From positions 1-29,913 of the IMG/VR virus record IMGVR_UViG_3300009474_000005: a stretch of 29,913 nt of DNA; one strand, 5' to 3'. Every line of letters begins with the position of its first letter. Positions within the stretch are counted from its first letter, which is position 1. Positions 2,464-13,059 of this stretch are shown piece after piece. A program made the translations under genes and the position numbers. This DNA comes from a virus. The notes under the pieces are model-generated. The model saw only the letters and a list, made by a program, of their open reading frames with translations, ran no database searches and was not told where the DNA came from.

Positions 2464-2476
2464 GGTGGTTGTTGGG
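2464..2476 (-). promoter_or_regulatory. CCCAACAACCACC leader motif, copy 1 (integrase)
   Basis: An exact 13-mer on the minus strand ending 3 nt before the integrase ATG. The same motif precedes five other genes in this window, and no Shine-Dalgarno is present here. Confidence 0.6.
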
Positions 2477-2488
2477 TTGGTGGTGGCA

Positions 2489-2806
2489 TCAGATCGACAG
2501 CAGCTGTCGCTTCAGTGCCTTGCCCTTTGGGGTGAGAAGGACAAGAAATCGCCGGCCCTCCTCTGGATCGTTTGCAGTGGTGACGAGGTTGAAGCCCGGC
2601 TTGCCTTTGCGGTGTTCATCGCCCAGGGCATGAACGGTGCGAGAGACGGCGCTGTTCGAAAGATCTAGAGCGTCTTCGATGGCGCGGAGGGTGCATGGCT
2701 CGTTTTCGCAGATGAAAACGAAGACTCGGACGAAGTGGGCATAGAAGTGAGTGGGTTCCAGGACCGCAAACAGGCCCAGAGCCCCCTGTAGTTGACGTAG
2801 ATCCAA
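2489..2806 (-). CDS. Winged-helix (MarR-like) transcriptional regulator
   Basis: 105 residues from a TTG codon; no ATG or GTG lies in frame upstream before a stop at 2828-2830. The segment CTLRAIEDALDLSNSAVSRTVHAL is a helix-turn-helix with recognition helix NSAVSRTVHAL. It is followed by a wing (FNLVTTANDPEEGRRFLVLLTPKG) and a final helix ending KALKRQL, the standard MarR order. The N-terminal helix region (LFAVLEPTHFYAHFVRVFVFI) would provide dimer contacts. It lies between another winged-helix gene and the integrase, so control of lysogeny is likely. The operator is unknown; a perfect palindrome lies just upstream at 2823-2836. Confidence 0.8.
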   Translation of the reverse strand: MDLRQLQGALGLFAVLEPTHFYAHFVRVFVFICENEPCTLRAIEDALDLSNSAVSRTVHALGDEHRKGKPGFNLVTTANDPEEGRRFLVLLTPKGKALKRQLLSI

Positions 2807-2988
2807 GGTCCAAAGCGGACGCGACTCCTAGGAGTCTGGCACCTGCGAACAGCGAGCTGAACAGGCGTCGCCATAGGGGTGAACCACACCTCAAACGCTT
2901 GCCAGTACTGGGGTCTGGGCAGCTCAATGGAGAGGAGTAGGGAGAAGTGCATCTGCATTGTATTTGTCGCATGTGGGAAGCATCGCAC
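2807..2988 (-). promoter_or_regulatory. Intergenic control region with palindrome and possible -10 box
   Basis: This 182-bp gap holds a perfect 14-bp palindrome, GACTCCTAGGAGTC (2823-2836), 17 nt before the TTG start. It also has a TACAAT on the minus strand (2962-2957) that could be a -10 box, although no good -35 is visible 17 nt upstream. ORFs across the gap show no recognisable protein. A promoter for the regulator and integrase is plausible. Confidence 0.35.
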
Positions 2989-3363
2989 CTAGGCGGCCAG
3001 CTGTTGTGACTGGCCAGGCGTCGTCAGAACGCCATAGGTGCGGATGAGCTCGGTGGCGGTGGTGCCCAATAGCAGCTGCAGGCCCTGCCGGTGAGGGTGA
3101 GGCCTGGTGCGCAGCCAGCTGACCGGGCAGCCACTGCTGCGGCCGCGGCCCCTTAGTCGGCAGGACAGCTGAGTTGCGGTCGATTGACTAAGCGGCGTGC
3201 CATCACTTGAGCCCATTGCGTGTCTTAGATCAGACACGTGATCAGCCTGCCCTCCAGCTATCAACAGCAGTGCTTCCAGCTGTTGCACGGTTAGATCGGG
3301 GTCTGCTGTTCTGGCCGCGGCGAGGAAGGAAGCCAGGCCTGCGGCGGTGTTGAGATCGGGCAT
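2989..3363 (-). CDS. Second winged-helix regulator (MarR-like)
   Basis: 124 residues. DLTVQQLEALLLIAGG is the usual first helix of small phage MarR-type proteins. DLRHAMGSSDGTPLSQSTATQLSCRL fits a helix-turn-helix with recognition helix LSQSTATQLSCRL. LRTRPHPHRQGLQLLLGTTATELI matches the wing and last helix. The order is that of the neighbouring 105-residue regulator, though identity looks low. It lies downstream of a ribbon-helix-helix gene and has its own leader: a hairpin plus an AACAACCACC motif 11 nt before ATG. Probable role: control of the lysogeny block. Confidence 0.7.
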   Translation of the reverse strand: MPDLNTAAGLASFLAAARTADPDLTVQQLEALLLIAGGQADHVSDLRHAMGSSDGTPLSQSTATQLSCRLRGRGRSSGCPVSWLRTRPHPHRQGLQLLLGTTATELIRTYGVLTTPGQSQQLAA

Positions 3364-3374
3364 GGCGTGGTGGT

Positions 3375-3385
3375 GGTGGTTGTTG
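3375..3385 (-). promoter_or_regulatory. CAACAACCACC leader motif, copy 2 (second winged-helix gene)
   Basis: An 11-nt match (CAACAACCACC) on the minus strand, 11 nt before the ATG at 3363. It directly follows a GC-rich hairpin and a run of four T. Confidence 0.5.
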
Positions 3386-3413
3386 AAAAGGGCAGCACCT
3401 GCTGGGGCTGCCC
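3386..3413 (-). terminator. GC-rich hairpin with T-run between regulator genes
   Basis: On the minus strand GGGCAGC pairs perfectly with GCTGCCC across a 10-nt loop and is followed by TTTT. It has the form of a weak intrinsic terminator or attenuator between the ribbon-helix-helix gene and the 124-residue regulator, so downstream genes may be partly uncoupled. Confidence 0.5.
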
Positions 3414-3421
3414 GGTGTTGA

Positions 3422-3601
3422 TCAGCCCTGTTCAGGCATCCCCACCTCGAGCACGTGTGCGCAAAGGTTGGACATGCTGCGGCCCTGCTGAAGGGCTGTG
3501 TTCAGCAGCCTTTGGTGCAGCGCGTAGCTGATCGTGATGGTGATGCGAGCGGGCGATCGTTTGGCAATCGAGAGCCGATCACGTAGCGAGAGAGGTTCCA
3601 T
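3422..3601 (-). CDS. Ribbon-helix-helix (CopG/Arc-like) DNA-binding protein
   Basis: 59 residues from the ATG at 3601, preceded by GAGGA 6 nt upstream; this start was preferred over a longer frame that overlaps the upstream gene. The core RITITISYALHQRLLNTALQQGRSMSNLCAHVLE has the ribbon (RITITIS), a first helix, the turn residue Gly40, and a second helix starting SMSNL, as in CopG/Arc/MetJ proteins. Such proteins repress transcription or control plasmid copy number. It is the only gene of this stretch with a clear Shine-Dalgarno and without the CCCAACAACCACC leader. Confidence 0.7.
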   Translation of the reverse strand: MEPLSLRDRLSIAKRSPARITITISYALHQRLLNTALQQGRSMSNLCAHVLEVGMPEQG

Positions 3602-3693
3602 AGGACTTCCTCGGTGGAAGCAGGGCAGAGCCCTGCAGGTGGCCGAGCACCAGGGCCCGGCCGCGAGCAGGGTTCGCTGCTGGCCAGGCGTCG

Positions 3694-4050
3694 TCAAACC
3701 TCGAGGGTCTTCATGGCCTGCCTGAGGGCATCCCATGCCCGGCCTTTGATCTGCTCAACCTCTGAGGCCGCCTTCTCCTGCTGCTGGTGGCAGCGCTCGA
3801 GCAGCTGGCAGGCCTCCAGGCTGGCGGCCTGGCGGATGGCGATGGCGTCGCAGCAGGCCTCAGCCTTGGCCCTGGCGGCCTGCTGCTGCAGCTGGCTGGC
3901 GGGCTGTGGAATGAGATCAGAGGCCAGCTGATCAGCCAGCCAGGGCAGGGCATCGGCCAGCCAGGGCCCTAGGTAGCTATCGGGCCCCAGGTGCTCGGCC
4001 AGCTGCTGCACAGCGGCCAGTTCTTCAGCCTTGGTGATGGTGGTGGGCAT
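3694..4050 (-). CDS. Hypothetical helical protein
   Basis: 118 residues, function not recognised. The N-terminal part (ELAAVQQLAEHLGPDSYLGPWLADALPWLADQL) resembles a stretch seen in cyanobacterial hypothetical proteins. The rest is Gln/Ala-rich and probably coiled coil (about 52-110). The ATG start lies 9 nt after the leader motif and downstream of the duplicated hairpin. The 92 bp between this stop and the ribbon-helix-helix ATG at 3601 shows no other gene. Confidence 0.6.
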   Translation of the reverse strand: MPTTITKAEELAAVQQLAEHLGPDSYLGPWLADALPWLADQLASDLIPQPASQLQQQAARAKAEACCDAIAIRQAASLEACQLLERCHQQQEKAASEVEQIKGRAWDALRQAMKTLEV

Positions 4051-4059
4051 GGTTTCAGT

Positions 4060-4074
4060 GGTGGTTGTTGGGTG
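4060..4074 (-). promoter_or_regulatory. CCCAACAACCACC leader motif, copy 3
   Basis: The exact 13-mer, flanked by CA, ends 9 nt before the ATG at 4050 and follows the structured RNA element at 4089-4124. Confidence 0.6.
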
Positions 4075-4088
4075 TTGGCAGCTGTGAA

Positions 4089-4124
4089 GGCTGCAGAGAA
4101 GCCCCGTAGGGCCTCTGGGCAGCC
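4089..4124 (-). ncRNA. Structured leader element, copy A (UACG-loop hairpin)
   Basis: On the minus strand the 36 nt fold as GGCTGC/GCAGCC, a 5' CC bulge, AGAG/CTCT, a 3' TT bulge, and GCCC/GGGC closing a TACG loop. C(UACG)G belongs to the very stable UNCG tetraloop class. A second copy at 5286-5321 is 34/36 identical, and the two differences are the two halves of one base pair. It lies about 40 nt before the 118-residue gene, followed by the leader motif. No T-run follows, so it does not look like a standard terminator. Confidence 0.55.
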
Positions 4125-4191
4125 ATCAGGGCCCGGTTTGGGCACCAGTGGCAGGGATGGCCGTGAGGGCAGCTGGTGGCCGCGGCTGCGG

Positions 4192-4201
4192 TGCACTGGT
4201 G
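4192..4201 (-). promoter_or_regulatory. CACNNGTGCA dyad site 1
   Basis: CACCAGTGCA on the minus strand, in the roughly 200-bp gap (4051-4256) upstream of the 118-residue gene. The remainder of that gap holds the hairpin and leader described separately; no coding sequence is recognised in it. Confidence 0.45.
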
Positions 4202-4256
4202 AACAGGATTGCGAGAGAGAAGCCGAGACACAAGCAAGCGAAGCGATTGCAGCCCA

Positions 4257-5243
4257 TCAGCCTTCCTCCTGCACTTCAGGGCCACAGATCAGGTTGGCGG
4301 CCTTGGTGGCATCGCTCAGCACCTTGAACAGCACCTTGTGCCCTTCCTTCAGCACACCAGCCCAATGCCCGAGATAGGCCACGTGGTTCTCGGTGCTGCT
4401 GGGTATCTCAAGCCGGTTACAGATCAGGAAGGCGGCCAGCTCAGCCACCAGCTCCTCGCGGGCGTAGGTGGTGGAACCGAACCCACCAGAGAGATCACGG
4501 GCCAGCCGGCTGGTGTGGCCGGTGCTGTGTGCTTGCTCGTGTGCCCAGGTCGCATACAGGCCAGCCGCGGTTGAGAACTGAGCACGGGCCGGCATTGAGA
4601 TGGAATCACCAGCGGGGCTGTAGAAGGCGCGATCGCCTGCCCAGCTGGTGGGCACCGGCCAGCTGCTCAGCATCTGCTCAGCACCGGCCAGCCGATCGGG
4701 CTCACTGCGCACAACCACAGCACCAGTGGCCGCGGCGATCGCGTCATTCAGAGCCTGTTGGCTGGCGTCATCACCGCCCACCAGATCGGCGACATTGAAC
4801 ACACAAGCGGGCTTGTAGCTGACCCATGCCGCAATGGATGGCGTGCCATCAGGCGACAGCAGCGGCTGGCCGTTCTCGTCTTCCATCTGGCGCTTGTTGA
4901 GCTGTGGCCTGAGCACGTAGCAGCCCTTAGAACCCTTGCGAGGGAACCAGCCCTTTGCTTTCGCCTGTGCCCCGCCCAGCCACAGCGGCAGGGAGAAGCC
5001 ACGGCAAGCGGAATAGATCTCGAGAACAGCCGGGTTACTGCCGCGGTAGTTGGCACCAGTCAGCAGGTTGCGGTGTTGGCCTTGCTGCCCCAGCTGTGTC
5101 CAATCCCGCCGCCAGGGATTCACGCCCTGCTCGAGCAGCTGCACCAGCTCGCTGCACAGCTTCTCCTCAGCGGTGGGCCCGTCATACGTCTTACGGGCCC
5201 TGGTGCTCGAGCCCTTTCCTTTCGTTTTGGTGGTGGTGGCCAT
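4257..5243 (-). CDS. ArdC-like antirestriction/ssDNA-binding protein with zincin motif
   Basis: 328 residues from the ATG at 5243. The N-terminal domain (about 25-115) matches the ArdC ssDNA-binding family: NPWRRDW, GANYRGSNP, then GWFPRKGSKGCYVLRP. The C-terminal domain has the zincin motif HEQAH (235-239) with HSTGH following, and AREELVAELAA (261-271), the probable third zinc ligand region. ArdC proteins travel on plasmids and conjugative elements and protect incoming DNA from host nucleases or restriction. Here the protein could protect phage DNA at entry or during plasmid-like replication. A longer frame upstream to 5435 was rejected because it overlaps the preceding gene and the leader. 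It starts 1 nt after a tandem CCCAACAACCACC leader. Confidence 0.85.
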   Translation of the reverse strand: MATTTKTKGKGSSTRARKTYDGPTAEEKLCSELVQLLEQGVNPWRRDWTQLGQQGQHRNLLTGANYRGSNPAVLEIYSACRGFSLPLWLGGAQAKAKGWFPRKGSKGCYVLRPQLNKRQMEDENGQPLLSPDGTPSIAAWVSYKPACVFNVADLVGGDDASQQALNDAIAAATGAVVVRSEPDRLAGAEQMLSSWPVPTSWAGDRAFYSPAGDSISMPARAQFSTAAGLYATWAHEQAHSTGHTSRLARDLSGGFGSTTYAREELVAELAAFLICNRLEIPSSTENHVAYLGHWAGVLKEGHKVLFKVLSDATKAANLICGPEVQEEG

Positions 5244-5244
5244 T

Positions 5245-5271
5245 GGTGGTTGTTGGGTGGTGGTTGTTGGG
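5245..5271 (-). promoter_or_regulatory. Tandem CCCAACAACCACC leader motif, copies 4 and 5 (ArdC-like gene)
   Basis: Two exact 13-mers at 5245-5257 and 5259-5271 with a 14-nt period, the nearer one ending 1 nt before the ATG. No Shine-Dalgarno is present. Confidence 0.65.
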
Positions 5272-5285
5272 TGACAGCTGGTGAA

Positions 5286-5321
5286 GGCTGCAGAGAAGGC
5301 CCGTAGGCCCTCTGGGCAGCC
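5286..5321 (-). ncRNA. Structured leader element, copy B (UACG-loop hairpin)
   Basis: The same 36-nt fold as at 4089-4124, but with inner stem GGCC/GGCC instead of GCCC/GGGC; pairing is kept by a compensatory change. It begins 1 nt after the TGA of the upstream 138-residue gene and is followed by the tandem leader and the ArdC-like ATG. It could be a processing, stability or attenuation element of this leftward transcript. Confidence 0.55.
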
Positions 5322-5322
5322 A

Positions 5323-5739
5323 TCAGGCGAAGCGCAGCGGCCGCCAGCCCAGCAGCCGGCAGACACGGCCCCAGGACCCGTCAGTAATCCAGCCCGGCCG
5401 GTGAACCGTGATCGAACCGCCGATGGCTTCCTCACCGCAGGCCAGATCGCTCAGGAATGACCAGCCATCACCAGGCCACAGCAGGTCATCACCACTGGCG
5501 TCAAACGTCAGGCGATCAGGCAGCTGGCCGCCATCGCCGTCAGGCCGATACCCACGCCCCAGCAGGTCGGCCAGATCGCGCACATCCCAGCAGCTGTCGA
5601 AATACTCATCACTCAGGCAGCCCCAGCTGGTGAGCCACCCACGCTCAGCCACATCCCCGCAATCGCAGGACTCAGCACTCACAGCTTCAGCAGTCAGACG
5701 GAAACGCCCAAAAGCCTCAGCACTACGCAAAACAGTCAT
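5323..5739 (-). CDS. Hypothetical acidic protein, first gene of the leftward block
   Basis: 138 residues, rich in Trp, Asp and Gly and strongly acidic. Cys24 and Cys26 form a CDC pair, with further Cys at 41, 50, 101 and 127, spaced unlike a classic zinc ribbon. No family is recognised. Repeated W-G-D segments (DGWSFLSDLACGEE, HRPGWITDGSWGRVCRLLGW) suggest a compact beta-rich fold, and an acidic DNA-mimic antirestriction role next to ArdC is conceivable but unsupported. The ATG lies 11 nt after a leader motif. It is the promoter-proximal gene facing the control region. Confidence 0.6.
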   Translation of the reverse strand: MTVLRSAEAFGRFRLTAEAVSAESCDCGDVAERGWLTSWGCLSDEYFDSCWDVRDLADLLGRGYRPDGDGGQLPDRLTFDASGDDLLWPGDGWSFLSDLACGEEAIGGSITVHRPGWITDGSWGRVCRLLGWRPLRFA

Positions 5740-5750
5740 CTCAATTCGGT

Positions 5751-5763
5751 GGTGGTTGTTGGG
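5751..5763 (-). promoter_or_regulatory. CCCAACAACCACC leader motif, copy 6
   Basis: Exact 13-mer on the minus strand ending 11 nt before the ATG at 5739. Confidence 0.6.
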
Positions 5764-5785
5764 TCGGTGAAACGCAACTGCATCT

Positions 5786-5795
5786 CACCTGTGCA
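5786..5795 (+). promoter_or_regulatory. CACNNGTGCA dyad site 2
   Basis: CACCTGTGCA within TGCATCTCACCTGTGCACA (5779-5797). That 19-nt stretch matches 7455-7473 at 18 of 19 positions. It sits about 45 bp upstream of the leftward block. Confidence 0.5.
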
Positions 5796-5863
5796 CAGTT
5801 CTAGCACTACCTGCCGCAGGTGCGTCAAGGGTGGGGTGGTGTTGGGTACTTAGGTGTTCACGC

Positions 5864-5889
5864 CATAACACTGCCGTTATGTCGTTATG
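5864..5889. promoter_or_regulatory. Probable operator: CATAAC-N6-GTTATG plus extra half-site
   Basis: CATAAC (5864-5869) and GTTATG (5876-5881) form a perfect 6-bp inverted repeat with a 6-nt spacer, and a second GTTATG follows at 5884-5889. The AT-rich half-sites stand out in GC-rich surroundings. The position upstream of the leftward block fits a repressor binding site. Confidence 0.45.
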
Positions 5890-6201
5890 ACGTTGCGTTG
5901 GTCGCCTGCAGGCCAGCCCTCAGCCGGACTCAGCCGGTGCTCACCAGCTGTCGCCTGTGCACAGCCGGGTGCCATCAGCCCTCAGCTGCACCCAGCGGCT
6001 GTGATCGCCTGCTCAATCCGCAAACAACCCAGCCACCACCAGCACCAGCCCCCTCAACTCTGCCGATCGGCTGCAGCTGGCCAGCCCCTGGCCCTCACCA
6101 GCCCCAGCAGGGCGCCCCTGGCCCCGTGACTGGTGGCACACACCAGCGAGGCCTCGCAGCCCCGCCCCAGGCCATCCCAGGCCGCAGTCAGGGCGAACGC
6201 A

Positions 6202-6304
6202 GGGGGGTATGGGGGGAACCCTGCTCGCTCGCGCTAGGGGGAAGCCATCACATCACGCGACCCCAAACGGGGCGGGGTTGGGGTGCCCCCAGGACGACGG
6301 GGGG
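6202..6304 (+). repeat. Cluster of seven G-runs (G-quadruplex-prone)
   Basis: Runs of four or more G occur at 6202-6207, 6211-6216, 6237-6241, 6269-6272, 6274-6277, 6280-6283 and 6299-6304. The three middle runs are separated by only 1-2 nt, so quadruplex formation is plausible on the plus strand. No such cluster was noticed elsewhere in the window. Confidence 0.45.
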
Positions 6305-6453
6305 AGACAACGCGTTAGCGGTGTCGGATGGAGGAGGTCTGGGGTGTGTGTGTTGTGGTCGGTCCTGCGAACTGCAATAGGACTGACAGAAAGAAATCTA
6401 AAAGACGAATTTGAGATCGATTCCAGTGGAGGAGGGGAGGTTTGGCCTACTTG

Positions 6454-6463
6454 TGCACAGGTG
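6454..6463 (-). promoter_or_regulatory. CACNNGTGCA dyad site 3
   Basis: CACCTGTGCA on the minus strand (TGCACAGGTG on plus), about 105 bp before the RepL-like gene and just upstream of the long hairpin. Confidence 0.45.
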
Positions 6464-6483
6464 TTAAGTTCTCGGCGAGACAG

Positions 6484-6531
6484 GGCTCTCCACCACTGGG
6501 TTTCGCCGACCCAGAGGTGGGTTGTAGAGCC
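6484..6531 (+). ncRNA. Long imperfect hairpin in the leader of the RepL-like gene
   Basis: GGCTCT/AGAGCC (6 bp), CCACC/GGTGG (5 bp) and CTGGGT/ACCCAG (6 bp) stack into a 17-bp stem. It has one A.A mismatch, a 5-nt 3' bulge and a 7-nt loop (6502-6508). No T-run follows, so a terminator is unlikely. It could be a translational control structure, an antisense-RNA-type regulator or part of an origin. Confidence 0.5.
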
Positions 6532-6566
6532 AGTCAGCACCTAGGGGTGAGTCCCGTGCCAACCGC

Positions 6567-6929
6567 ATGAAAACTACCGAAGCAGCGAGGTTCGTGATGC
6601 TGCAGATCAACGACACCAGCCATGTCGTTTCCCTGTTTGGGAAGCGGCTGTTGCAACCCAGAGATGCCGGCGTCTTGCTGGCGTTGATGGCCCACACCGA
6701 CACCCTGACCGGTCGCATCCAGGTGACGGCCAATCACCTGGCGGAGGAGCTGCAATGCCAGCCGTCTGAGGTCCGCAATGCCTTCGCCCGGCTCAAGAAG
6801 AACCACCTGCTCAGGAAGGTGATGATCAAAGAGACCGGCCAATGGTTCTACCTGCTCAACCCCTGGATGGTTCAGAGCGGTAAACCCCAGGCGATTGGTC
6901 TGGCTATGAAGCAATTCCAGGAGGCCTGA
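6567..6929 (+). CDS. RepL-like winged-helix protein (possible replication initiator or regulator)
   Basis: 120 residues. RDAGVLLALMAHTD is followed by TGRIQVTANHLAEELQCQPSEVRNAFARLKKNHLL, a helix-turn-helix with recognition helix QPSEVRNAFARLKK, and then by a wing ending GQWFYLLNPWMV. This layout and the NP-x-hydrophobic end resemble the RepL family of plasmid replication proteins and related cyanobacterial winged-helix proteins. It either starts replication of a plasmid-like form or regulates the rightward block. There is no strong Shine-Dalgarno; the leader carries a long hairpin. The stop overlaps an ATG (TGATG) in frame with the next gene. Confidence 0.7.
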   Translation: MKTTEAARFVMLQINDTSHVVSLFGKRLLQPRDAGVLLALMAHTDTLTGRIQVTANHLAEELQCQPSEVRNAFARLKKNHLLRKVMIKETGQWFYLLNPWMVQSGKPQAIGLAMKQFQEA

Positions 6930-6942
6930 TGCCAACCCTGCA

Positions 6943-6955
6943 CCCAACAACCACC
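6943..6955 (+). promoter_or_regulatory. CCCAACAACCACC leader motif, copy 7
   Basis: Exact 13-mer directly abutting the ATG at 6956, and the only plus-strand copy. It shows that the motif follows start codons, not one strand. Confidence 0.6.
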
Positions 6956-7312: not shown

Positions 7313-7348
7313 CCTGCCCCGCAGCAGCTAACAGGTGGTGCTGAGCTG

Positions 7349-7360
7349 CGAATCGATTCG
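7349..7360. repeat. Perfect 12-bp palindrome CGAATCGATTCG
   Basis: Lies in the gap after the membrane protein gene; a partial copy CTCGATTCGG follows at about 7377-7386. The function is unknown. Confidence 0.3.
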
Positions 7361-7393
7361 TGTGCCCTGAAAGCCCTCGATTCGGTTGTTGGG

Positions 7394-7435
7394 GGAAGCC
7401 CTCACTGTCTTTCGAGATGGTGGGGGCTTCCTTGT
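7394..7435 (+). terminator. Intrinsic terminator after the RepL-like/membrane pair
   Basis: GGAAGCCCTCAC (7394-7405) pairs with GTGGGGGCTTCC (7420-7431), 12 bp including one wobble. Inside the loop TCT-TTCG-AGA forms a UUCG-capped mini-stem, and TTGT follows. It separates the upstream pair from the terminase genes. Confidence 0.65.
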
Positions 7436-7461
7436 GGTCGGGCTCAGAATGAATTGCATCT

Positions 7462-7471
7462 CACCAGTGCA
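7462..7471 (+). promoter_or_regulatory. CACNNGTGCA dyad site 4
   Basis: CACCAGTGCA between the terminator and the ATG at 7475, with the dyad centre about 10 nt before the start codon. Confidence 0.5.
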
Positions 7472-7474
7472 CAA

Positions 7475-10626: not shown

Positions 10627-10704
10627 CGCTTCGCACCAATGCACCACTGCAGAGTAAACGGCCAGAACAGGCCATAACTGGTATCTGCTGCCCATGGCAG
10701 AACT

Positions 10705-13059
10705 GTGCACAGGTGGGGTGGAATTGCTGCTGAAAGCAGTGAGTTCTGCACGTTGGACATCAAAAAAGGCGCATCCACACCTGTGGACGAACTGCATCGG
10801 CAGAGGCAAATCAGGGAAGAACAGCGAGCAGAACAGCGTGGCCGGGTTAGCTATCAGCAGCTGATCGCCCAGGGGCGCGAGGGCAGCACGGCCTACGGCG
10901 CGGCCCTGTTCCGTCTCTATGGGGAATCGGTGAATGTGGCGTTGGATGCACTGCTCACCCGGCTGCTGGACAACCCCCACATGGCAGGGAAGCACATGGG
11001 GGCATGGCCATTACTGCTGCACTTCTGTGATCGAGGTCCGCGGTCGATTGCGGCCATCGCGTTGGCGGTGGTGATCGATGGCATCAGTACACGGCCGCGG
11101 CGAGCGGACTTAGCCAAGCGAATTGGCCAGGCCCTGCAGGACGAGCTGAAGGCCACCCGTCTGTATCAGCAGAAGGGTGTGGTGCTGATGAGCACGCTCA
11201 AGAAGAAATACGGCCGCAAGACCGTCTCGAACCGGATCCTCAATGAGCTGTCTGTGGATCCAAGGGGCTGGACCCAGAAGGAGCGGCGAGAGCTGGGATT
11301 GCTGCTGCTCGAGGTCATTGCCGCCAACACCACGTTGATTCGCTTCACCAGCGATCGCGTGCCGCTGGTGGAGGCCACGGAGGACGCGCTCGAGGTGGTG
11401 CGGCTGAACCCGCCACGACCGTTACCAGTGCGGATGCTGCCGTCGCTGTTGCCGCCTGAGCCCTGGACGGATGTTGTTCGCGGCACGCGGTCGCTGGTGT
11501 CCAGTCGCAAGCCGCTGGATCTGAGCCACATAACGGCCGAGTCGGTGAAGACCGCGATTGAAGTGGCGAACTATGTCGAGCAGCAGCAGCTGGAGATCGA
11601 TCCATGGATGGTCGAGCTGCAGCGCGTCGCCTGGGACGCCAACCTGCCGGCCCTGTTCGCCGTGCGCCGTGACCCTGAGGAAGCGTGGCTGGCCCACATG
11701 CAGGCTGCCCAGCGGGCGCGGATTGAGGATGCGATTCGCCAGGCCGAGGAGGTTGGTGCATACCCGATCTGGCTTGAGCACGATTTCGATTTCAGGGGTC
11801 GCCTCTATTGCGGCAGCCGAATCGCTGGCCATCAAGGGCCTGATCACCAGAAAGCGCTGATCTCGTTCGCGCAGCGCGAGCCGGTTGATGAGCAGGCCCT
11901 GGTGCAGATGCTGCAGGCCGCGGCCGGACACTACGGGTTGGGTCATTCCAGCTGGGCTGAGCGTGCGGCCTGGGGGAGAGAGAACCTGCCGTTGATCACG
12001 TCGGTGGCTGAGAGCCCGCTGGATCAGCTGGATCTGTGGAAGGGTGCCAAGGAGCCATGGCAGTTCCTGCAGCTGGCCAAGGCAATCCACCAGGTGCTGC
12101 AGGGCGACACCAGCAGTGGTGTGCCGGTTCGTTTCGACCAGACCTGTAGCGGGCTGGGAATCATTGCGGCGCTCACGCGCGATCACTCGCTGGCCCTGGC
12201 CACCAATGTGATCGGCGATCACCGCAACGACCTCTACGCCCACGTGGCAGGGCGACTGACGGAGTTGTTGCAGGCCGATCTGGACAGCTTCGACTTCAGA
12301 GACCAGCGCTATGCCGAGCTGTGGCTGAAGCACGGTGTGGACCGATCGCTGGCGAAGGGGCCAGTGATGACCACGGTGTACGGCGCCAAGCACTTCGGGC
12401 TGGTTGAGCAGCTGGTGGCCCACCTGCAGGGAGCCAATCCTGATCAGCCAGTGGGGCGATGGGAGAAGGAATACACCGTGCCGGCGCAGTACCTGGCGCG
12501 AAAGCTCAATCTGGTCATCGGCACCGAGCTGCGCAGCTGCATTGCCGTTGAGACGTGGCTGCGGGACGTGAGCAGCCGCTGCCTGCGCAAGCAGCAACCG
12601 ATCCGCTGGAACAGCCCGTCGGGATTCCCGATTCGCCTGGGCAGCCTGATGGAGGAGACCCAGAAAGTGGGCACGGTGATCAATGGCTCACGGCGCTGGA
12701 AGCGCGTGGATGCCAGCTACGAGCCGGGCCAGCTGAGCGCCCGTGTGACCAACCGGGGCATCACGGCCAACGCCATCCACACATTCGATGCAGCCTTCTG
12801 CCACCAAATGGTTCTCACTTGTGCATCTGTGCAGGCGCCCGTGTTGACCAACCACGACTGCTTCGCCACAACGCCTGCTCGAGCGGCCTGGCTGCATGGC
12901 GTGTTGCATAGCGAGCTGCGAGAGATGTATCAGCAGGATTGGCTGTCTGAGATCCAAGTAGAAGCCAGTCGCAATGCTCGTCTGCGCCTAGGTGCCCCGC
13001 CAATGGTCGGCGATTTATGCGCAAATCAGATCGGCGAAAACCCCTATTGCTTCAGCTGA
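10705..13059 (+). CDS. Single-subunit DNA-directed RNA polymerase (T7 gp1-like)
   Basis: Up to 784 residues, against 883 in T7. Motif A is RFDQTCSGLG with Asp478 (T7 Asp537). Motif B is RSLAKGPVMTTVYGAKHFG with Lys551 and Tyr559 (T7 Lys631, Tyr639). Motif C is NHDCFAT with Asp718 (T7 Asp812). PIRWNSPSGFPI and the terminal NPYCFS also match the family; the aromatic C-terminal foot contributes to catalysis. It would transcribe phage middle and late genes from its own promoters. The start is uncertain: GTG 10705 overlaps a dyad site, and TTG 10753 or GTG 10783 are alternatives. The N-terminal domain is shortened relative to T7. Confidence 0.95.
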   Translation: MHRWGGIAAESSEFCTLDIKKGASTPVDELHRQRQIREEQRAEQRGRVSYQQLIAQGREGSTAYGAALFRLYGESVNVALDALLTRLLDNPHMAGKHMGAWPLLLHFCDRGPRSIAAIALAVVIDGISTRPRRADLAKRIGQALQDELKATRLYQQKGVVLMSTLKKKYGRKTVSNRILNELSVDPRGWTQKERRELGLLLLEVIAANTTLIRFTSDRVPLVEATEDALEVVRLNPPRPLPVRMLPSLLPPEPWTDVVRGTRSLVSSRKPLDLSHITAESVKTAIEVANYVEQQQLEIDPWMVELQRVAWDANLPALFAVRRDPEEAWLAHMQAAQRARIEDAIRQAEEVGAYPIWLEHDFDFRGRLYCGSRIAGHQGPDHQKALISFAQREPVDEQALVQMLQAAAGHYGLGHSSWAERAAWGRENLPLITSVAESPLDQLDLWKGAKEPWQFLQLAKAIHQVLQGDTSSGVPVRFDQTCSGLGIIAALTRDHSLALATNVIGDHRNDLYAHVAGRLTELLQADLDSFDFRDQRYAELWLKHGVDRSLAKGPVMTTVYGAKHFGLVEQLVAHLQGANPDQPVGRWEKEYTVPAQYLARKLNLVIGTELRSCIAVETWLRDVSSRCLRKQQPIRWNSPSGFPIRLGSLMEETQKVGTVINGSRRWKRVDASYEPGQLSARVTNRGITANAIHTFDAAFCHQMVLTCASVQAPVLTNHDCFATTPARAAWLHGVLHSELREMYQQDWLSEIQVEASRNARLRLGAPPMVGDLCANQIGENPYCFS
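10706..10715 (-). promoter_or_regulatory. CACNNGTGCA dyad site 6
   Basis: CACCTGTGCA on the minus strand, overlapping the first possible start codon of the RNA polymerase. The 17 nt CACCTGTGCACAGTTCT (minus 10715-10699) also occur on plus at 5786-5802. Confidence 0.45.

Follow-up and report, generated by a model that had tools for sequence, protein, structure and literature searches.

The window analysed here, a 29,913-nt stretch of viral DNA (IMG/VR record IMGVR_UViG_3300009474_000005), belongs to a T7-like phage with an integrase. Its leftward early/lysogeny module carries a repeated leader word, CCCAACAACCACC, and a structured element 5' of its terminase genes holds a complement of that word. 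Six exact copies of the word are present, on the minus strand at 2464, 4060, 5245, 5259 and 5751 and on the plus strand at 6943; a seventh at 3375-3387 (-), TTCAACAACCACC, has 2 mismatches. As shuffled sequences give 0.00 exact copies (100 shuffles), chance or composition was rejected as their origin. The copies precede six starts with a spacing of 0-15 nt, and the repeated leader reported by the sequence-only reading of this DNA is thus borne out. The copy at 2464-2476 (-) is 3 nt before the start (2460) of a tyrosine integrase (1351-2460, -; Pfam PF00589, E=6.5e-20; also integrase in PHROG). The imperfect copy is 11 nt before the start (3363) of a 124-aa gene at 2989-3363, called winged-helix earlier, for which no family match was found in Pfam or PHROG. 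The copy at 4060-4072 (-) stands 9 nt before the hypothetical gene 3694-4050, and that at 5751-5763 (-) stands 11 nt before the hypothetical gene 5323-5739. Two tandem words (5245-5271, -) lie 1 and 15 nt before the start (5243) of an ArdC-like antirestriction protein (4257-5243, -; Pfam PF08401, E=9.9e-18, and PF18818, E=7.2e-36). The single rightward copy, 6943-6955 (+), directly abuts (0 nt) the start of a membrane-protein gene; this gene is indeed tagged as first read, but its start is 6956 and not 6929, since L029/L030 homologues, which back the later start, have a stop codon between the two.

The distribution of the word is selective. Tags are carried by most genes of the leftward module and, in the window's own subgroup, by one early rightward gene, while the morphogenesis and DNA-metabolism part of the window has zero exact copies, as first noted. 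The leader words are predicted to be unstructured, with a probability of being unpaired of 0.69-0.97 compared with 0.41 for random 13-mers, also in line with the first description. The claim that the word replaces a Shine-Dalgarno sequence holds for most tagged genes, which have none, but not in L196, L230 and L264, where a Shine-Dalgarno-like sequence lies between word and ATG. The RHH gene of the window (start 3601) has a Shine-Dalgarno-like sequence in place of the word.

The same arrangement recurs in a family that we identify as temperate viruses of water cyanobacteria. In viral contigs with ArdC relatives the core CAACAACCACC mostly occurs 3-8 times, within one module and on the gene strand, and the rest of these ~40-kb records is nearly free of it; in full records a single complement is present, on the rightward strand, and further copies are almost lacking. 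A census of 17 related loci gave 94 core copies: 80 are gene leaders, 14 lie at the element and none is found anywhere else. The possibility that the motif is as frequent inside genes, named beforehand as a refutation, was therefore checked and did not materialize. All 80 of the non-element copies precede a start by 0-24 nt (median 11), compared with 28% of random positions, and the genes concerned are non-homologous. These results back the view that the leader marks a co-regulated module. In the cultured relative, Synechococcus phage S-SRP02 (Autographiviridae), whose integrase is 62% identical, the same leaders are present and several structural genes have Shine-Dalgarno-like sequences; its genome paper (PMC8790148) nowhere uses the words promoter, terminator, leader or ribosome. 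Pattern scans run broadly over viral contigs returned mostly unrelated single copies and few added members. Use of the word by hosts was not borne out: the extended leader CCAACAACCACCACC before an ATG was found in 1 of 300 Cyanobiaceae genomes, solely on two contigs with genes of this phage, and in G025, a 3-Mb metagenome-assembled genome, motif hits are no more numerous than reversed-control hits. A host-wide leader or translation signal was rejected on these grounds. The contig L049 (RFQY01000156.1), binned as Rhodobacteraceae, holds this cyanophage module, which probably reflects misbinning of phage DNA.

The key to the function of the word is a further partial copy, overlooked in the sequence-only reading, on the minus strand at 7381-7393 (CCCAACAACCGAA). 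There is one such core copy per genome; it has no gene after it and lies in the terminase transcript on the opposite strand. Read rightward, it is part of a conserved structured RNA element of ~100 nt (7326-7433, +), the proposed antisense RNA, which consists of hp0 (7326-7347, conserved loop GTGGTG at 7335-7340), hp1, an anti-leader and hp2 (7394-7431), a 17-bp hairpin that is terminator-like or RNase III-like. The anti-leader GGTTGTTGGG (7384-7393, +) is the perfect complement of CCCAACAACC in the six exact leaders, with predicted duplex energies of -17.4 to -21.6 kcal/mol. Most relatives show, between terS and terL, hp0, hp1, GGTGGTTGTTGGG and an hp2 of 15-20 bp. In the window, L029, L031, L183 and L250 the element is 5' of terS, elsewhere directly before terL, and its layout is kept. 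A covariance model (R1) built from 25 sequences, the window element among them, matches the latter with 46.4 bits (E=8.8e-10). For hp0, the hairpin given by single folds was preferred to the one placed by RNAalifold. Counting of pairs over hp0 and hp2 showed double-sided changes in 14 of 20 pairs, with 96.6% of cells pairing, values reached in 0 of 500 shuffles. As 92 cells are G-U in the rightward direction and only 2 are A-C (G-U on the other strand), the element works as a rightward RNA, the strand with the anti-leader. The hp0 loop is near-constant (GTGGTT or GTGGTA in some lineages) while its stem covaries and the anti-leader word changes. No Rfam family reached its gathering score in the window; the elements of L198 and the window gave nothing above chance-level hits.

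Leader and element change together. Terminase searches added more than 100 loci, some of which use different leader words, and at least 14 lineage-specific words are now seen, with each genome's element holding the complement of its own. They include CACACCACCA (L196, L243), CACCACCACCACC (L207), CAACCACCAACC (L218), CAACCACCACC (L221), CAACAACAACCAA (L226), ACACCAACCAACC (L244, L247, L248), CACCATCACCA (L278), CCAACACCACC (L297), AACAACCACTAACC (L234, L236), CAACAACCACCAACC (L239, L284), ACCACGACCAA (L264) and TCACCCGAC (L301). Because the words are nearly always A/C only, the leaders stay unfolded despite these changes. Integrase leaders hold their own lineage's word in most related genomes, and their longest perfect complement averages 14.6 nt in the own element versus 10.4 nt in foreign ones (n=19; permutation p=5e-5, the lowest value that this test can give). 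The values for ArdC leaders are 12.3 versus 10.2 nt (n=15), and for the 700 nt 5' of terL 13.75 versus 10.07, with 7.5 for random own 40-mers (n=28). The permutations ignore kinship, and the count that is missing is supplied by the TerL tree, on which the 14 words need 13 changes; several of the derived words branch, with good support, inside the canonical clade. Perfect complements beside starts span about 9-22 nt. At the integrase leader of L198, L221, L232 and S-SRP02 (L046) the pairing reaches into the 5' arm of hp2 and extends over 19-22 nt, longer than for other genes, which suggests that the integrase would be under the tightest control among the tagged genes.

Model R1 was also searched in genomes and loci, several of them outside the training set, and it found untrained elements in L287 (E=7e-8) and genome G246 (E=5e-11). 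The L287 element contains AGTAGTGGTGTGTGG, and the leftward genes of this locus start after CACACACCACC; the G246 element contains GTGTGGTGTTGGTGTG, and the sole leader found on this short contig contains ACACCAACACCAC. Both matches are foretold by the pairing hypothesis and not by enhancer or promoter readings. The element model had no clear match in AP013546 and AP013547, two distant marine relatives.

A molecular basis for the repeated leader can now be proposed. Tag position, matched complement, lineage-specific covariation, RNA structure and strand can all be read from the sequences, and pairing of leader and element is, on these comparisons, well supported. We consider it likely that a phage-encoded antisense RNA uses the motif as its target tag. 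In this model, the element would be transcribed rightward just 5' of the terminase genes, exposing a G/U-rich anti-leader between hairpins, while the tags would be held unstructured next to the ribosome-landing site. Once the rightward transcript is made, the element would pair over about 10-22 bp with every tagged leader beside its start codon; coverage of the ribosome-landing zone would block translation, and the paired mRNAs would probably also be exposed to RNase III. Release as a small RNA would have its 3' end at hp2, as a terminator in L264/L259, where a hairpin with UUUU comes after the anti-leader as in an intrinsic terminator, and elsewhere perhaps at an RNase III site. A role as a Rho utilisation site would require Rho in the host, which cyanobacteria are generally considered to lack. 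Pairing would repress rather than activate, and integrase, ArdC and small early proteins would be shut off together at the change from the early/lysogenic to the lytic state. The most likely outcome of such RNA pairing would be a switch-off of the tagged genes as a set.

Several observations weigh against this proposal. The permutation test counts related genomes as independent. With 10 nt, the match in the window itself is one of the shortest, and its foreign scores are as high as the own score, and single-leader matches are poor for the integrase of L285 and the ArdC of L236 and L230. The anti-leader is partly paired in the folded element (probability of being unpaired 0.12-0.38), hp2 is without a long U tract in most freshwater genomes, and a sigma-70 consensus recognised no promoter near the element. 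Both the antisense RNA and the repression are deduced from sequence comparison, and a DNA-binding protein drifting together with its sites would fit the L287/G246 test as well.

This last point leads to the rival in which the word is a double-stranded DNA operator that a phage protein recognizes; the terminase region would hold a single inverted copy, and words and specificity would drift together. Such a system would likewise yield lineage-specific words that match at both places; however, the leaders lie at module-internal genes directly beside start codons, their orientation follows the gene (rightward membrane gene included), the words have no dyad symmetry and on the mRNA strand consist of A and C only, and the inverted copy belongs to an RNA fold that covaries and whose G-U pairs are specific to one strand. 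We regard the operator as improbable. Somewhat less improbable, though still unlikely, is regulation in the reverse direction, in which leader-bearing mRNAs control the terminase by opening or closing hp2 near the terL start. In most genomes hp2 does end ~3 nt before terL and holds a GGAGG-like stretch. In the window and in the relatives with the element 5' of terS, however, 270-480 nt separate it from terL; since the element is kept there, it is not merely the ribosome site of terL, and many leaders facing one element better fit one regulator with many targets.

The roles suggested in the sequence-only reading, a translation enhancer or the target of an RNA-binding protein, have given way to pairing with an antisense RNA in light of the lineage-specific words and their complement within one conserved RNA element. 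An RNA-binding protein is disfavored because a binder of single-stranded RNA would not read two complementary sequences. A CA-rich leader acting only as an unstructured ribosome-landing or S1 enhancer in place of Shine-Dalgarno, repeated through cassette shuffling, would agree with the unstructured leaders, with the tagged genes that mostly lack Shine-Dalgarno, and with the S1-dependent, Shine-Dalgarno-free initiation reported in cyanobacteria (Mutsuda and Sugiura 2006, a title cited in PMC6847405). A generic enhancer or S1 site is nevertheless disfavored because it has no need for a matched complement in a separate RNA element; the word is also kept where a Shine-Dalgarno-like sequence follows (L196, L230, L264), and host genomes do not use it. 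As the sole function, the enhancer is already contradicted by the covariation of word and element, and we hold it to be very unlikely; the CA-rich stretch may still aid ribosome landing as an added role. The least plausible reading makes the inverted copy a promoter of the phage's T7-like RNA polymerase (with a TTGGGAGA start), the similarity to leaders being secondary. GGGAGA resembles the T7-type initiation sequence, but T7-like phages have many promoters, whereas here there is a single site per genome, on which account a phage RNA polymerase promoter was judged unlikely; covarying hairpins flank this site, and the leaders would be left unexplained.

The antisense RNA proposed here can be compared with known phage systems. 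The P1/P7 c4 RNA is a 77-nt antisense RNA, processed from a longer transcript, that represses ant in trans (PMC8546580, and Citron and Schuster 1992 therein). The P22 sar RNA is a phage antisense RNA of 68/69 nt that pairs with a phage mRNA (PMC12197685), and the antisense CI RNA of P4, likewise processed, is complementary to more than one target in the phage (seqA/seqC; PMC4825925). The element would resemble c4 in blocking phage genes in trans, sar in acting as a phage antisense RNA on phage mRNA, and CI in having more than one complementary phage target. In common with this kind of RNA, its complementarity to the leaders of phage mRNAs is extended, lies at or near starts and is kept by coordinated change (14 words, 13 changes, two out-of-sample cases), and its fold on the antisense strand is stable (covarying hp0/hp2; 92:2). 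Where c4 has one target operon, the element has about four to eight genes as counterparts, each tagged separately, with words that vary by lineage. The sar RNA has a single target (ant), and its Rfam model (RF00262) scores the element of the window at 17.5 bits (E=0.32), below the cut-off of 43 and no better than chance. P4 CI acts by transcription termination, whereas the targets here are mostly A/C-only tags at the start codons of many genes. Antisense RNAs are also reported for the cyanophage S-PM2 (CfrI) and the temperate T7-like phage LUZ100; CfrI is linked to psbA and that of LUZ100 lies in the structural region, and neither is described as targeting repeated leaders (PMC12197685, PMC10134795). 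As far as the accessible text of the 2025 review of phage small RNAs goes, none is described as targeting a repeated tag on many phage genes (PMC12197685).

Known phage antisense RNAs mostly have one target each, whereas here one RNA appears to govern a module via a common tag. The tag has changed about 13 times and its complement has changed along with it, so that coevolution of one regulator with many targets becomes directly measurable. For temperate T7-like cyanophages this gives an early/late or lysis/lysogeny switch that can be put to the test, and it provides a family of RNA regulators that may be orthogonal to one another. More tentatively, the words might form a phage-private code, in which an element silences only early genes with its own tag; a prophage or first infector could then silence kin with the same word, a superinfection immunity coded in RNA, and a new immunity group would arise when the word changes.

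Further repeats accompany the leaders. A hairpin-forming 47-nt repeat is present upstream of the 4060 leader (4084-4130, -) and, 96% identical, upstream of the ArdC leaders (5281-5327, -); the hairpin-then-leader layout is also present in relatives. These intergenic hairpins, which in the window and in L023-L044, L123, L196 and L243 adjoin leaders on the upstream side, can pair in two ways that exclude each other, since GCAGCC can join either one GGCTGC or the next, and could be terminators, processing sites or an attenuator. They are reminiscent of the promoter-early-stem-loop cassettes of T4-type phages, in which sequences with hairpins recur between shuffled genes and for which we know of no described antisense partner. 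The sequence TGTGCACNGGTGAGATGCA has exactly two copies in the window, at 5779-5797 (-) beside the first gene of the leftward module and at 7455-7473 (-) beside terS, and a third site with 3 mismatches at the RNA polymerase start (10704-10722, +); it is possibly the operator of a phage repressor. A 17-nt exact repeat, CTGGCCAGGCGTCGTCA, is found at 3010-3026 and 3680-3696, at the 3' ends of two non-homologous genes.

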